Assembly: GCA_014730235.1 (NCBI GenBank)
Contig: WJIO01000011.1
Location: 1-6,019, forward strand
Reading direction: 5' to 3'
DNA from: Candidatus Poribacteria bacterium
GTDB taxonomy: Bacteria > Poribacteria > DTPJ01 > WJIO01
DNA: 6,019 nt
Shown here: one piece after another, positions 1,844 through 6,019 of the stretch
Position numbering within the stretch: position 1 is the stretch's first letter
Layout: each line of letters begins with the position of its first letter
Made by a program: the position numbers and the translations under genes
The notes under the pieces: model-generated
Databases searched by the model: none
What the model was told of the DNA's origin: nothing
The model's input: only the letters and a program-made list of their open reading frames with translations

Positions 1844-2156
1844 CCTTTGACATTGAAATATATTCCCGTGTCCTATACGTGACCTATAGAATCTCAAGAA
1901 AGCAGAAAATGGTATGAAAAATAAGAAGAAATTTCAAAAAGGCTGGGAACAGGAAAGCCAGTCAATACGCTACTCCATAAAACAATTATAAACTATTTCA
2001 AAATATCTAAAAACCTACTTGGATGGACTCAAAATCCAGCGGGTGGTGACACCCATGTCGGTTCGATTCCGACCGCCGGCACCACCCTTAAATGCCTACC
2101 ATTACTCGCTTTGCCTGTATTTTGAAAATCCCTGATTTAGCCTGTTAAAGTTGGTC
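1844..2156. other. Gene-free stretch holding the att core
   Basis: These 313 bp separate the rightward membrane-protein gene from the leftward integrase, and I see no credible gene. A perfect TTGACA at 1847-1852 lacks a well-placed -10 (the nearest TA-rich hexamers are about 19-20 bp away). No clear terminator hairpin with a T-run follows either converging gene. The only strong content is the tRNA-Leu fragment at 2024-2084. The hexamer GCCTGT occurs twice to its right (2113-2118 and 2140-2145), 27 bp apart, and could be part of recombinase arm sites. Confidence 0.7.
2024..2084 (+). tRNA. 3' fragment of tRNA-Leu(CAA), probable att core (not a complete tRNA)
   Basis: The sequence folds as the 3' two-thirds of a class II tRNA. 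The anticodon stem TGGA/TCCA encloses the loop CTCAAAA with anticodon CAA at 2030-2032. A long variable arm follows (GGGTG 2041-2045 pairing with CACCC 2050-2054), then the T arm GTCGG-TTCGATT-CCGAC (2057-2073), the acceptor strand CGCCGGC (2074-2080), discriminator A and an encoded CCA (2082-2084). The expected 5' acceptor GCCGGCG and a D arm are absent upstream. Base 2023 already breaks the fifth anticodon-stem pair (A opposite G2039). Tyrosine-recombinase elements typically share exactly this segment, anticodon region to 3' end, with their target tRNA gene. The integrase gene ends 72 bp away. I read this as an att identity segment, not a functional tRNA gene. The tRNA identity is near certain; the att role is strong inference. 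Confidence 0.9.
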
Positions 2157-3224
2157 TTAATCAAGGCGTGTGCCTAAATGGTGCCCAAGGCTTGCGAAAT
2201 CTTCCGCAAATGGGAGTTGAAGGACTTGCTTTTTAACATGCTCTTTTGATAAATGAGCATATCTGAGAGTAGTTTGGTAACTCTGATGTCCCATGAGTTC
2301 CTGAATATGTCTTAATGGAACACCTGACGCTGCAAGCTGAGAAGCAAAAGTGTGCCTGAGAGTGTGAAGGGTTACATCCTTCAAACCGGCTTCCTTAACA
2401 ACCTTCCGCAAAGTAGTGTCAATACCATTCTTTATCCTTGCTCCCTTATAGGTAAAGACGTATTCGCACCTAATCCCGGATTCAATGCAATTTCTATATC
2501 TCTTCTGAAGCATTTCATACAAAACCGGTGTAAGGAACACAGTTCTTGGTTCATAGTTTTTTGTGTTCCAGTCATCTTTAGGCTGAATTGTGACTATACT
2601 TTGATTAAAGTCAATGTCTGACCATATCAAATTCAGCAATTCAGATTTACGCATCCCTGTATGAATAGCGGTCAATATAATTGGATAAATATAGGTATTT
2701 TGGGCAGATTCCAGAAGCCTTTTGATTTCATCAATGTTTAGAAATCTAGGGTTCTTTTTAGAAACTTTTAACTTCTCAACAAAAGATACAGGATTCTGAT
2801 CTACATATCTCCATCTTATGGCTGTTTTTATAATATGGCTTAAACAAACCAACTCATGGTTGATTGTATTGTTAAAAGCTTCCGTTTTAAGCCTTTTAGA
2901 TATATATTTATCTATCATCTCTGGAGTTATTTCCTTCAGGGAAGTCTTGCCAAAATACGGAAGTAAATGAGCTTCAATCCTGTATTTATCATTTTTGTAG
3001 GTACTTTTAGCTTTCGCGTCTTTAGTATACTCAAAATACCTGGTTAAAAATTTGCTGAAGGTAATATCTTTCTCCCTAAGTTCCCATTTACCTTCTGCGA
3101 TCTCATTTTTTATCCGGCGTTCTACTTCTTCCGCCTGCTTCTTTGTTCCAACCATCTTCCTATACCTTTTACCGTTTGGGTATAGATCAACGAACCATTT
3201 ATTTTTTCTCTTGCGAATTGCCAA
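2157..3224 (-). CDS. int: Tyrosine recombinase/integrase of the element
   Basis: This is a complete phage-type integrase of 355 residues. Residues 1-25 (IRKRKNKWFVDLYPNGKRYRK) resemble the N-terminal arm-binding domain. About 55-155 is the SAM-like core-binding domain (FSKFLTRYF... through ...NPVSFVEKL). About 160-335 is the catalytic domain with the full set of residues: Arg192 (HTGMRKSE), Lys222, His287 and Arg290 (LHTLRHTF), His313 (LMGHQS) and nucleophile Tyr322 (TLRYAHLS). The start is TTG, not ATG. It is chosen because AGGAG lies 7 nt upstream and because the N-terminal domain would be cut by the next in-frame Met (residue 24). The first 26 nt overlap the end of the excisionase gene, so translation is probably coupled. 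The enzyme should integrate and, with Xis, excise the element at the adjacent tRNA-Leu segment. It appears intact and potentially active. Confidence 0.97.
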   Translation of the reverse strand: MAIRKRKNKWFVDLYPNGKRYRKMVGTKKQAEEVERRIKNEIAEGKWELREKDITFSKFLTRYFEYTKDAKAKSTYKNDKYRIEAHLLPYFGKTSLKEITPEMIDKYISKRLKTEAFNNTINHELVCLSHIIKTAIRWRYVDQNPVSFVEKLKVSKKNPRFLNIDEIKRLLESAQNTYIYPIILTAIHTGMRKSELLNLIWSDIDFNQSIVTIQPKDDWNTKNYEPRTVFLTPVLYEMLQKRYRNCIESGIRCEYVFTYKGARIKNGIDTTLRKVVKEAGLKDVTLHTLRHTFASQLAASGVPLRHIQELMGHQSYQTTLRYAHLSKEHVKKQVLQLPFAEDFASLGHHLGTRLD

Positions 3225-3456
3225 TGCGAAACTCCTGTTCTTTTAACCAATCATCTATCTCTGACTGACGGAACCGAAGGTGTCCATGCATCTTAATGAA
3301 AGGAATCTTCTTCTGGTGTGTCAACCAGTATATATATGGTTTGGAGACTTTGAGAAGCTCGCATATCTCCTGGACTGTTAGCAATATACTAGCCTTTGTA
3401 TAATAATCATCTGAATTTACAATGTCAACAGGAGATTTTCTGTTTGAGTTATTCAT
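3199..3456 (-). CDS. xis: Excisionase-type helix-turn-helix protein
   Basis: This 85-residue protein carries a MerR-like winged helix of the excisionase/HTH_17 type at about residues 25-73: LLTVQEICELLKVSKPYIYWL, then the wing with IPFIKMHGHLRFRQSEIDDWLKEQ. This family bends or loads DNA at att sites to favour excision, or acts as an AlpA-like activator of int. The gene sits directly upstream of int and overlaps it by 26 nt, the usual xis-int arrangement. The ATG at 3456 is supported by AAGGAG 8 nt upstream. The N-terminal ~24 residues are polar and lack similarity to the family core. The symbol xis rests on fold plus position; recombination directionality has not been shown. Confidence 0.88.
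   Translation of the reverse strand: MNNSNRKSPVDIVNSDDYYTKASILLTVQEICELLKVSKPYIYWLTHQKKIPFIKMHGHLRFRQSEIDDWLKEQEFRIGNSQEKK
3232..3236 (-). promoter_or_regulatory. Ribosome binding site for int (TTG start)
   Basis: On the minus strand AGGAG is followed by 7 nt and then TTG at 3224-3222. The site lies inside the excisionase coding sequence, so int initiation probably depends on ribosomes translating xis. It decides the start of int. Confidence 0.75.
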
Positions 3457-3487: not shown

Positions 3488-3688
3488 TTAAGCATTCAGC
3501 AAAGATTCTATCTCTTTGATCTGTTTGTCTGTCAGATTCCAAATACCTTTGTCGAGATAACTAAACTTTTCACCAGCATATAAGCAGTTTTCTGTGTCGT
3601 TGAATTCGATTAGAACACGTTTACCTTTCTTATCTCCATAGGCTTTTAGAATGAAAAACACCTTGATATTTTCTTTTAATCTTTTCAT
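3488..3688 (-). CDS. Small protein of unknown function, upstream of xis
   Basis: This is a 66-residue basic/acidic mixed protein with no membrane segment or recognisable motif. The first half looks beta-rich (KVFFILKAYG, KRVLIEF). The C-terminus looks helical (LTDKQIKEIESLL). The ATG at 3688 has a modest AGGGA 7 nt upstream. The gene is 31 bp before xis on the same strand, with no terminator seen between them, so the two are probably co-transcribed. Small genes in this position of integrative elements often encode regulators or accessory factors, but nothing in the sequence assigns one. That it is a real gene is likely from spacing, ribosome binding site and absence of a competing frame. Confidence 0.65.
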   Translation of the reverse strand: MKRLKENIKVFFILKAYGDKKGKRVLIEFNDTENCLYAGEKFSYLDKGIWNLTDKQIKEIESLLNA

Positions 3689-3802: not shown

Positions 3803-4105
3803 CTAAACTCCATGATAAACATGGTCGAGATAATACGATATGGCATTATTCATAAGCCTTTCAATTAAAACCTTACCTGGTCTTTCATCCATATGCTTTG
3901 CCAGTTTCTCAACCCTTGCTCTGCATTCTGGTGACAATTGTTGTAATAGCTCTTCTGGTAAAATGCTGTTTGTTAGAGATTCACGAATATAATCACTGAA
4001 AGAAGTATCAATGCTTTCAGCTTTTTTCCATACTCTGTCCTTAATGTCACCTTCGATTCTTACGGTAAATGTTGAATTATAACGCCAATTGTTTTTATCA
4101 GACAT
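3803..4105 (-). CDS. Ribbon-helix-helix (Arc/CopG-like) DNA-binding protein
   Basis: The protein has 100 residues from the chosen ATG. About residues 11-17 (STFTVRI) form a probable DNA-contacting beta strand. Helix A (about 19-30, GDIKDRVWKKAE) and helix B (35-47, SFSDYIRESLTNS) follow, the arrangement of Arc/CopG/MetJ dimers. The C-terminal ~50 residues are helical and may mediate oligomerisation. An ATG 12 nt further upstream (4117) is in frame. I prefer 4105 because GGAG lies 6 nt before it, while the upstream ATG has no Shine-Dalgarno. RHH proteins in such elements act as autorepressors, copy-control proteins or relaxosome accessories. Its place between the candidate origin and the xis/int genes fits a regulator of element replication or excision. 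A terminator hairpin is not evident downstream, so read-through to xis and int is possible. Confidence 0.75.
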   Translation of the reverse strand: MSDKNNWRYNSTFTVRIEGDIKDRVWKKAESIDTSFSDYIRESLTNSILPEELLQQLSPECRARVEKLAKHMDERPGKVLIERLMNNAISYYLDHVYHGV

Positions 4106-4111
4106 CTTATG

Positions 4112-4115
4112 CTCC
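4112..4115 (-). promoter_or_regulatory. Ribosome binding site deciding the RHH start
   Basis: GGAG on the minus strand sits 6 nt before the ATG at 4105 and overlaps the codons just after the alternative ATG at 4117. It supports the shorter product. Confidence 0.6.
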
Positions 4116-4224
4116 ATTGATCATGTAGGACATTAGCAAATGCTAGGGAAAACAGCGATTAGGCTGAGTGAATAATTTCCAAAAAATTAGTCATTTCCTG
4201 TCGGATAATTCATAGATGGACTTA

Positions 4225-4241
4225 CAAAATGCGTCATTTTG
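4225..4241. promoter_or_regulatory. Palindromic candidate operator of the RHH promoter
   Basis: CAAAATG and CATTTTG are perfect 7-bp arms around a 3-bp centre (CGT on the + strand). The palindrome begins 5 bp downstream of a perfect minus-strand -10 box and so would cover the transcription start, a classical repressor position. The RHH product encoded downstream is the obvious candidate ligand. A related half-site (CATTTGCTA on the minus strand) lies within the inverted repeat around 4134-4145. Confidence 0.5.
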
Positions 4242-4252: not shown

Positions 4253-4272
4253 AAAGTTAGTCGGAGTAGGTT

Positions 4273-4536
4273 TATACTGGTCTAAAGGTTGGTATATATG
4301 CCCTGAAGTATTGTCAAATAAGGGATTACAGCTTTCAATATAGACCATATAGACCAAAACATGGAAACTTTTTTTGGTATAATACATTTCTCTTCTGATT
4401 GTTAATCTTTTATTTTCTCAAATTATTTTTTATGAAAGTTGGTCTATATGGTCTATATTATTCCCGTAAAGGCTTATCAATAAAGGGTTTAGCATATATA
4501 GACCAACATATATACCAGTATAGACCATATACACCA
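4273..4536. repeat. Iteron array with nested dyad symmetry, candidate replication origin
   Basis: A 9-bp unit TATANACCA, mostly TATAGACCA, occurs about ten times. Forward copies start at 4339, 4348, 4497, 4509, 4519 and 4528. Reverse copies (TGGTNTATA) start at 4290, 4440 and 4449, with one variant TGGTCTAAA at 4278. Adjacent units are mostly 9, 10 or 12 bp apart, close to a helical turn, as expected for a protein binding one face. Orientation runs reverse pair, forward pair, AT-rich centre, reverse pair, forward four. Outer and inner sets are therefore mirror images around about 4400. The array begins 12 bp beyond the stop of the Rep-like gene. Together these features fit an initiator-bound origin; an operator array for the RHH protein is the main alternative. 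Confidence 0.75.
4337..4459. repeat. Perfect 21-bp inverted repeat flanking an AT-rich core
   Basis: The arms 4337-4357 and 4439-4459 are exact reverse complements. Each consists of two abutting TATAGACCA units plus one or two flanking bases per side. The 81 bp between them (4358-4438) contain 17 G/C bases, about 79% AT, with T-runs, which suits a DNA-unwinding element. Each arm is itself a tandem repeat, so protein binding is a better explanation than a simple hairpin. Transcripts reading through from the Rep-like gene could nonetheless fold here. Confidence 0.85.
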
Positions 4537-4548
4537 GATTTGTATTTC

Positions 4549-6019
4549 TCAATTAATATGCTGCTTTCCTGTAAAAATATATTCATTAGCTGCACCTTTT
4601 TTCTTCAGAATCTCAAAATCGAAGTATTTCTCCAGTTCCTTTTTCAGATGCCATAATTTCGTTGATAAAGAAATGACGTTTGCGCAAGGGAAATACATAT
4701 GGTTTTCTTCTGCAATGTTTTTTAATGAATGAAATAATTCACCAGCTTTTATTGGCTTGCTTTCATTACCATTACTTCCCAACCATTCTGAAATACATAT
4801 TAAAACAGGATCATCTTCCAGTAGGAAATCACTTTGCTCTTCAGTGATCTTCTCGAGAATGTTTAGAAAGATTTCTTTATTATCAGATACCTTCCAACCA
4901 AAACTGGCAAAATCAGCCATACGAAAATTATATTCCTGAGCCCTATCTTTGTTCTCTCTCAGGTTGTTTATGCAGTCATTCAATATATGAAAAAGTTCCG
5001 TTAATAAAGCATTCCTATTACTGTCTATTCTATCCAGCAAAATAGATTCAGAGATGAAATCTGATAAACGCTCTAATTTAAATATGATTAATCTTTCAGT
5101 CACATCATCCCTTTTGAATTTTGGTGTTCTTGCTGTAAGAATCAAGAAGCATCTGGGATAAAATTGTTCTAAATCATTAGTTGTATAATATTTACGCTTA
5201 CTTATAGTTTGACCAGTTGATATTCTGGCTAGATGATCAGGCAACCAGTTACTTTTTGAGTCAGCATTATCAAAGGCAACCAGGTAACTATTGCAAACAT
5301 TAGCAACGAAATCTTTTTCATCATTAATAGGATTAACATCGAATTTATTACCAAATAAAAGGCGACCAATAATCCTGGCTGCAAAGGTTTTACCGCTTCC
5401 TTTTACACCAGTGAACAACAGTAAAGGTTTAGTAGGCATAATGGACTCGAAAAAGATAGAATAAAGCCATATCCTAAAGAGTAAACGTTGTTCATCACAT
5501 GACAATATTGATTGTTCAAAATTAATAAGGGTAGTAAGGTAATCTTCCGGAATATTTTGCTTTTTTACTCTTTCCAATCCATAAGACCGATCTATCTCAT
5601 AGGGTTGACAATCTTTATTATATTGAAACAGAATACCATCTGTACCGTTGGACATTAGCTCTATACTGTCACCATCCAGTTTGTATACCTGTCCATCGAA
5701 TTTATCTATATAAAGCCTGAAATTATCTTTATCATAATATGCATACCTATAAACCTGGGTTTCCTTCCCGTAAGAATGACATCTGGCTTTTAAATCATTC
5801 TGAACATATTTAAAATCATATTCACCTTCTACAAGACCAAAAGATTTATTCAGCAGGGATACGAAATCCATATTCATAAGATTTACCAACTTTTTTTGTT
5901 CTGAAATTAAGTAGAAATATTCATTTTCAGTTTTTATGAATTTACCCTTATCCAGAAGTTCCTGATATACGCAATTGGATATAAGTCCTTTCTTCTCTTC
6001 ATAACTTATTTTACTATCC
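4549..6019 (-). CDS. Replication-type AAA+/SF3-like ATPase (primase-helicase family), 5' partial
   Basis: The frame stays open to the right edge (43 further codons beyond a TTG at 5889), so the N-terminus is missing and 489 residues are visible. Numbering from that TTG, a mixed region of about 1-120 (YDKDNFRLYIDKFDGQVYKLDG, NGTDGILF) resembles the linker preceding helicase domains of phage/plasmid primase-helicases. Walker A is GVKGSGKT (161-168). A Walker B-like strand is YLVAFDNAD (202-210). WLPDHLARISTGQTISKRKYYTTN (215-238) and the segment up to TERLIIFKL (264-272, Arg266 a possible arginine finger) match ATPases of phage, satellite and plasmid replication proteins in the D5/SF3 neighbourhood. 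The C-terminal ~90 residues look like a winged helix, possibly origin-binding. A primase part could lie off the edge. The iterons follow immediately, supporting a Rep role. ATPase is firm; replication initiator/helicase is likely. Confidence 0.85.
   Translation of the reverse strand, partial: DSKISYEEKKGLISNCVYQELLDKGKFIKTENEYFYLISEQKKLVNLMNMDFVSLLNKSFGLVEGEYDFKYVQNDLKARCHSYGKETQVYRYAYYDKDNFRLYIDKFDGQVYKLDGDSIELMSNGTDGILFQYNKDCQPYEIDRSYGLERVKKQNIPEDYLTTLINFEQSILSCDEQRLLFRIWLYSIFFESIMPTKPLLLFTGVKGSGKTFAARIIGRLLFGNKFDVNPINDEKDFVANVCNSYLVAFDNADSKSNWLPDHLARISTGQTISKRKYYTTNDLEQFYPRCFLILTARTPKFKRDDVTERLIIFKLERLSDFISESILLDRIDSNRNALLTELFHILNDCINNLRENKDRAQEYNFRMADFASFGWKVSDNKEIFLNILEKITEEQSDFLLEDDPVLICISEWLGSNGNESKPIKAGELFHSLKNIAEENHMYFPCANVISLSTKLWHLKKELEKYFDFEILKKKGAANEYIFTGKQHIN

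Follow-up and report, generated by a model that had tools for sequence, protein, structure and literature searches.

The 3' end of a Rep-like ATPase gene on a Poribacteria contig is followed by a mirrored array of short repeats, and the question raised by this locus is what the array does and which protein recognises it. The contig, WJIO01000011.1, is part of a 5.53-Mb draft genome, and its 6,019 nt make up the whole stretch of DNA analysed here (the window). A preliminary description read the array as a replication origin on the 3' side of rep, similar to those of the SaPI phage satellites. This reading is supported by three independent lines: the fold of the Rep protein, the architecture of related loci and the layout of a functional PICI origin. 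We conclude that positions 4268-4536 very probably serve as replication origin for an integrative element resembling a plasmid or satellite, and are recognised by the adjacent Rep. A search of the accessible literature returned no dedicated paper on mobile DNA in Poribacteria.

Read along the minus strand, the window begins with rep (4549-6018, 489 aa up to the contig edge, which truncates its 5' end), which encodes a predicted SF3/D5-type helicase ATPase. The origin array comes next, followed by a gene for a ribbon-helix-helix (RHH) protein (3803-4117, with weak Arc-like and NikA-like matches), a 66-aa ORF without family match (3488-3688, from the ORF list and family searches), the excisionase-type HTH_17 gene xis (3199-3456) and a tyrosine integrase gene (2157-3224), the last two assigned by family searches. 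The genes of the rep/xis/int module reported beside the array are all on the minus strand. Near the end lies the 3' half of a tRNA-Leu(CAA) gene (2023-2084, plus strand; tRNA identity assigned by reading), which adjoins the integrase gene and is a probable attachment site. Its 5' half is absent beside it, no complete tRNA was called in the window, and an Rfam scan of the window gave no match. A diverged second copy of the tRNA-Leu piece is present on contig C80 (L003, about 1519-1580), and no further match to it was found in this genome. The sequences of these pieces suggest repeated insertion at one tRNA gene, and the left 2 kb of the window possibly belongs to another insertion. The contig covers the int end of an integrative element and lacks the remainder.

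The array consists of a single unit, TATANACCA, of which nine exact copies occur in the window, all within 4290-4536; one-mismatch units at 4268-4276 and 4278-4286 bring it to about 11 units over 4268-4536. The repeats first counted as about ten copies are real, their number being refined to nine exact and two one-mismatch units, and the unit map also bears out their arrangement in four clusters of mirrored orientation. The first unit lies 12 bp past the rep stop codon (4549-4551), so that the array adjoins the ATPase gene as stated and occupies the position of a PICI/SaPI-type origin, immediately 3' of the initiator gene. On the rep strand, four units run one way, forming the rep-side outer cluster (4497-4536, TATANACCA on the plus strand; units at 4497-4505, 4509-4517, 4519-4527 and 4528-4536), and a 39-bp spacer (4458-4496) separates them from two units running the opposite way, the first inner pair (4439-4459, minus strand). 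After this pair come the AT-rich core (4358-4438, 81 bp), which is the presumed melting site, two mirrored units forming the other inner pair (4337-4357, plus strand), a 40-bp spacer (4299-4338) and the outer cluster away from rep (4268-4298, minus strand), in which one exact unit (4290-4298) is joined by the two degenerate ones. The 39-bp spacer contains AAACCCTTTATTGATAAGCC on the rep strand, and the 40-bp spacer contains AATCCCTTATTTGACAATACTT, also on the rep strand, which is a loose direct repeat of it.

Each inner pair holds its two units at a 9-bp period and forms one arm of the 21-bp inverted repeat that had been described; the arms pair at every position (100% complementarity), and the 81 bp that separate them form a core of 79% AT. 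The inverted matches between the outer clusters (4290-4300 with 4507-4517, and 4273-4281 with 4514-4522) are likewise real, and their centres at 4403.5 and 4397.5 fall close to that of the inner arms at 4398.0. The outer clusters are mirrored in orientation but unequal, the rep side having four exact units and the far side a single exact unit plus two degenerate ones. What had been called a nested design holds as regards mirrored orientation; it is not a set of independent palindromes, but one unit repeated in mirrored orientation.

The array is far above chance. In shuffles of the whole window (n=200), TATANACCA occurs on average 0.28 times and at most 3 times, compared to 9 observed, and in 2000 dinucleotide shuffles of 4273-4536 the units number at most 2 and the inverted arms reach at most 14, compared to 21 observed. 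Because TATANACCA was picked from the same data, a motif-free count matters here: the best exact 9-mer family is present six times, against a shuffle maximum of 3. The mismatch-tolerant array score of the window has a z of just 3.9 (12 shuffles), because AT-rich DNA lifts the background.

The window Rep reaches the cut-off of no Pfam family (including DUF927, D5_N, Primase_Cterm and VapE) and has a weak phage-primase match (PHROG 47, 2.6e-7). Three of 18 relatives match DUF5906, and three match VapE-like families weakly. An AlphaFold model of Rep, built with 17 relatives in the alignment (pLDDT 88.6), was compared with known structures using Foldseek and VIA-align. Its best structural match is the primase-helicase PriRep1 of SaPI5 (7ola, Z 18.4, rmsd 5.7, 375 residues aligned), with further matches to 7om0 (Z 17.9), poxvirus D5/E5 (about 16), AsfvPrimPol, NrS-1 and Cch. 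The helicase fold is common to most of the Rep length, and by this model Rep is an SF3/D5-type helicase. The last 70 residues have the predicted secondary structure helix-helix-strand-strand, from which the C-terminal end is putatively named a winged-helix type. The N-terminal primase part of Rep may lie beyond the contig edge.

Among characterised systems, the origins of PICIs and SaPIs (SaPIbov1, SaPI5, EcCICFT073) are similar in lying directly 3' of rep, with two iteron sets flanking an AT-rich stretch (PMC6092414). Their Reps have an SF3/D5-like helicase fold, and origin recognition resides in the C-terminal domain (PMC6092414, PMC7581432), as described for SaPI Rep and Cch2 (PMC7581432). 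The EcCICFT073 origin in CFT073 (L120:3996-4285) carries mirrored GGTAGAYA units right after the primase gene, and deletion of this origin region strongly reduces plasmid maintenance in E. coli (PMC6092414). The iteron sequence of the window is different, and its Rep belongs to a separate sequence family without a DUF927 or D5 Pfam match. The gene order also differs: in PICIs, int lies beyond the regulators and is followed by xis-pri-rep-ori and by interference/packaging genes (PMC6092414), whereas the window has, on a single strand, rep-ori-RHH-orf66-xis-int, in which int lies beyond the origin. We do not class the element itself as a PICI, because this order is not that of a PICI and because no PICI regulator, terS or capsid gene is visible on the contig part of the element, which ends inside rep.

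The crr region of phage P4 is similar in that the alpha primase-helicase gene is immediately followed by mirrored 8-bp type I units, whose head-to-tail pairs face each other. It differs in its unit (GGTGAACA) and in being composed of two 120-bp direct repeats together with a separate ori, whereas the window has a single mirrored array and no 120-bp direct repeat. P4 alpha was not among the Rep sequence matches in the phage collection. By analogy with these systems, the best reading is that the window array works like a PICI/P4 origin. Repeats resembling the P4 unit were also seen in a Streptomyces plasmid, where several copies of CGTGAACAG (L019:2232-2798) lie ~8 kb from the ATPase relative.

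A third similar origin, that of the Sulfolobus plasmid pRN1, lies 3' of ORF904, a primase-helicase-winged-helix protein. It is a stem-loop located 54 bp downstream of the gene, with 20-21-bp arms, an AT-rich loop and a stem whose integrity is required (PMC4234260), and the window shares this form in its perfect 21-bp arms and 81-nt loop. The pRN1 origin differs in its archaeal host and 58-nt loop, in that outer clusters are not seen, and in being described as a structural rather than an iteron origin. In our own reading, however, the pRN1 stem can be written as TTATGTCCATAGTGTCCAAC...GTTGGACACTATGGACATAA, two units at 9-bp spacing inverted around the AT-rich loop, and the stem-loop and iteron models therefore overlap.

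Relatives of the window Rep were drawn from genomes of the same phylum, from plasmids and viral contigs, and from a set of 84,980 species represented by a single genome each, and their rep 3' ends were scanned for repeated words in comparison with shuffles and with the remainder of each locus. Single-protein scans found no close relatives; alignment-based searches were successful. The check suggested in the preliminary description, to look for the unit beside homologues of the ATPase, recovered the plan but not the unit: TATANACCA was found beside none of the relatives examined, whereas the mirrored plan, with very different units but at the same position relative to rep, recurs in Poribacteria, Calditrichota, Zixibacteria, Planctomycetes, plasmids and viral contigs. 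Mirrored arrays are present in Poribacteria (L009, the same as L111; unit GTGACGTTT ×13, repeated word AAACGTCAC ×13, null maximum 3), in L098 (unit TATTAGTTT ×13, repeated word AAACTAATA ×13) and in a Chlorohelix plasmid (L018; unit GTGACGCT ×12, repeated word AGCGTCAC ×12, null maximum 4). A weaker one, with the unit GGGTGACA, is present in Calditrichaceae (L097), and GGGTTAG units were recognised by reading in Zixibacteria (L099). Clear arrays also occur in Planctomycetales (L100), in two viral contigs (L022 and L023) and in L030 and L047, and weaker ones at the rep 3' end of L016 and L027; that of L017, recognised by eye, is one gene farther on. Scores at least 6 SD above shuffles (12 shuffles each) were obtained for L009, L022, L023, L097, L098, L100, L018, L030 and L047.

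The unit sequence differs in nearly every lineage, a GTGACG core being common to L009, L018 and L030. Across loci, the inner pairs have an 8-10-bp period and face each other over 55-139 bp, with a core AT content of 62-80%. By the cross-locus measure the core is 84 bp in both the window and L097, and 75-87 in L022, L023, L098 and L099. The spacers between inner and outer clusters are 39/40 bp in the window, 39/39 in L009, 40/40 in L098 and 37 on one side each in L097 and L018, with deviations in L022 (longer) and L023 (39 bp and 60 bp). The origins of L009, L097, L098, L099, L100, L018, L022 and L023 belong with the same or a related Rep family and have the mirrored plan with similar core and spacer lengths, but their units are almost completely diverged. 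The primase part also varies among the relatives, being DnaG-type in L022 and L098, while L018 has a separate gene upstream without Pfam family match. The Calditrichaceae locus (L097:5809-7783) has the order rep-iterons-RHH-serine recombinase instead of a tyrosine recombinase, and the integrase type has therefore been swapped while rep-ori-RHH is kept. In L047 (5028-5310) and in L038 near the rep 3' end, the 3' coding tail of rep itself contains the iterons, and one stretch of sequence thus belongs to both origin and protein tail.

In the tree of Rep sequences, the window Rep groups with L098, L022 and L023 (support 95/94), and all four bear arrays. The array label requires at least 8 changes over 34 rows, compared to 11.6 by shuffling; with 22 of 500 shuffles as low, the arrays are mildly clustered on the tree. 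The placements of L016 (long branch) and L046 (wrong-frame row) were left uninterpreted. Related rep genes in Gastranaerophilales (L101-L110) and phages (L112-L119) have no array within 600 bp 3', and in the tree five Gastranaerophilales-type rows and most phage rows are without one. The array is therefore not universal in the family: presence of rep without the repeats, which the preliminary description had named as evidence against an origin, is found in this subset. The rep gene is directly followed by genes for an excisionase-type protein and an integrase in L101, L103 and L110 (by reading). No significant array was found in the Methanothrix plasmid pH6Ac (L014) or in M. bullatum (L015), and a large group of ~500-aa marine viral ATPases has no 3' arrays. 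Two plasmids bear other repeats: in pH6Ac, GTTCGAGCA occurs six times at an 11-bp period upstream of rep (L014:942-1005), and the Desulfocapsa plasmid (L016:4545-4859) has a second array, AACTATCAC ×8, beside a separate annotated replication initiation protein, so that this plasmid may have two replicons.

The most serious rival explanation is that the array is a partition site (centromere) or an operator, bound by the neighbouring RHH protein and not by Rep. ParR, ParG and omega are RHH proteins that bind short repeats, and the gene after the array encodes an RHH protein in the window, in L009 (CcdA-like, 9e-7) and in L097 (RHH_10, 5e-5, with a weak ParG match). RHH binding is nevertheless disfavoured, because six loci (L018, L022, L023, L098, L099 and L100; ORFs read by eye) bear arrays without a recognisable RHH gene directly after them. 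The position of the arrays follows the rep 3' end, the one in L047 falling within the rep coding tail. In the window, the RHH gene has a palindrome of its own, CAAAATGCGTCATTTTG at 4225-4241, which is distinct from the iterons and a candidate operator of that gene (a second, half-similar copy lies at 4183-4196), and no ParA/ParM-type partner was seen. We consider this explanation unlikely.

A decayed origin, in which the repeats would be a functionless fossil within an inactive element, is also decidedly unlikely. In its favour are the interruption of rep by the contig end, the degeneracy of one outer cluster, and the orphan tRNA-Leu piece with its diverged C80 copy, which indicate that old insertions are present; against it, the 21-bp inverted repeat is perfect, and no stop interrupts the visible parts of the rep, xis and int frames. 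Recognition of a large DNA stem-loop extruded by the 21-bp arms, rather than of the unit, is very improbable: it has a precedent in pRN1 (PMC4234260), and a DNA fold of 4273-4536 on the rep strand has a predicted energy of -35.8 kcal/mol (z -5.4), but mirrored binding sites produce an equal fold signal, and the units also occur outside the stem and side by side in the same orientation, neither of which a stem needs.

For an origin recognised by Rep, the following working can be proposed. The C-terminal winged-helix part of Rep would bind the TATANACCA/TGGTNTATA units, and the mirrored inner pairs would place Rep hexamers head to head across the AT-rich core. ATP-driven Rep would then melt the core and load as replicative helicase on both strands, the hexamers moving outwards, and after excision by int/xis a primase, either N-terminal or encoded by a neighbouring gene beyond the contig end, would prime bidirectional synthesis. 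The outer clusters, ~40 bp away on each side, may hold extra Rep copies or serve copy control. A second origin or a different initiator may be present elsewhere in the element, which is truncated here.

The spacers between inner and outer clusters were also searched for a common motif by EM. The pooled score was higher than in shuffles, but the null was run with fewer starts and the comparison is hence unfair; the leave-one-lineage-out result was weak and the forward strand no better than the reverse, and a common spacer motif is not claimed for the window. A box of the form AAAGCC-GC-NNN-ATTACT-GGC(TTT), often a hairpin, was observed in the inner-outer spacers of the Poribacteria origin L009 (4425-4448 and 4641-4664), of an origin on a viral contig beside a DUF927-like helicase gene (L205:2784-2806; helicase assigned by reading) and of the functional E. 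coli PICI origin (L120:4186-4205), although their Reps belong to different families. The box is not clearly present in the window. A scan of viral contigs for the L009/EcCICFT073 box gave one clear match at a mirrored-iteron origin (L205), many other matches being coding (Ash/Icd-like) or unrelated. Many prophage contigs (L158:3634, L177, L210, L141 and others) carry the box in a frame reading AESRAITGF, presumably Ash/Icd-like, and it is flanked on both sides by ATGTGCGG repeats, which gives the small ORF the look of an iteron array. In L225 (11264-11286) and L241 (12402-12424), the box is located within a gene and surrounded by TTCGACGG repeats, a layout reminiscent of an origin within a replication gene; in L225 this gene precedes an ORF with a GKT motif, possibly as a lambda-O/DnaB-like pair.

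The survey supports a general origin class of SF3/D5-type replicons, with unit turnover and steady geometry, for which a controlled survey is needed. More tentatively, PICIs, P4 crr, pRN1 and plasmids and elements of multiple phyla could possibly share one widespread class, defined by mirrored pairs of units at 8-9-bp spacing that flank an AT-rich core where an SF3/D5-type rep gene ends. In such a class the geometry would be kept and the unit almost freely replaced together with the Rep C-terminus, and a second conserved feature, the spacer hairpin AAAGCC-N11-GGCTTT with an ATTACT loop, would be common across Rep families.

The analysis gives a mobile element of Poribacteria a candidate replication origin. 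In the loci compared here, Rep/iteron pairs vary naturally in sequence while their geometry stays similar, a set of variants with which the recognition code of the Rep C-terminus can be tested directly. Their shared plan also offers a simple search rule for the origins of unclassified plasmids and integrative elements.
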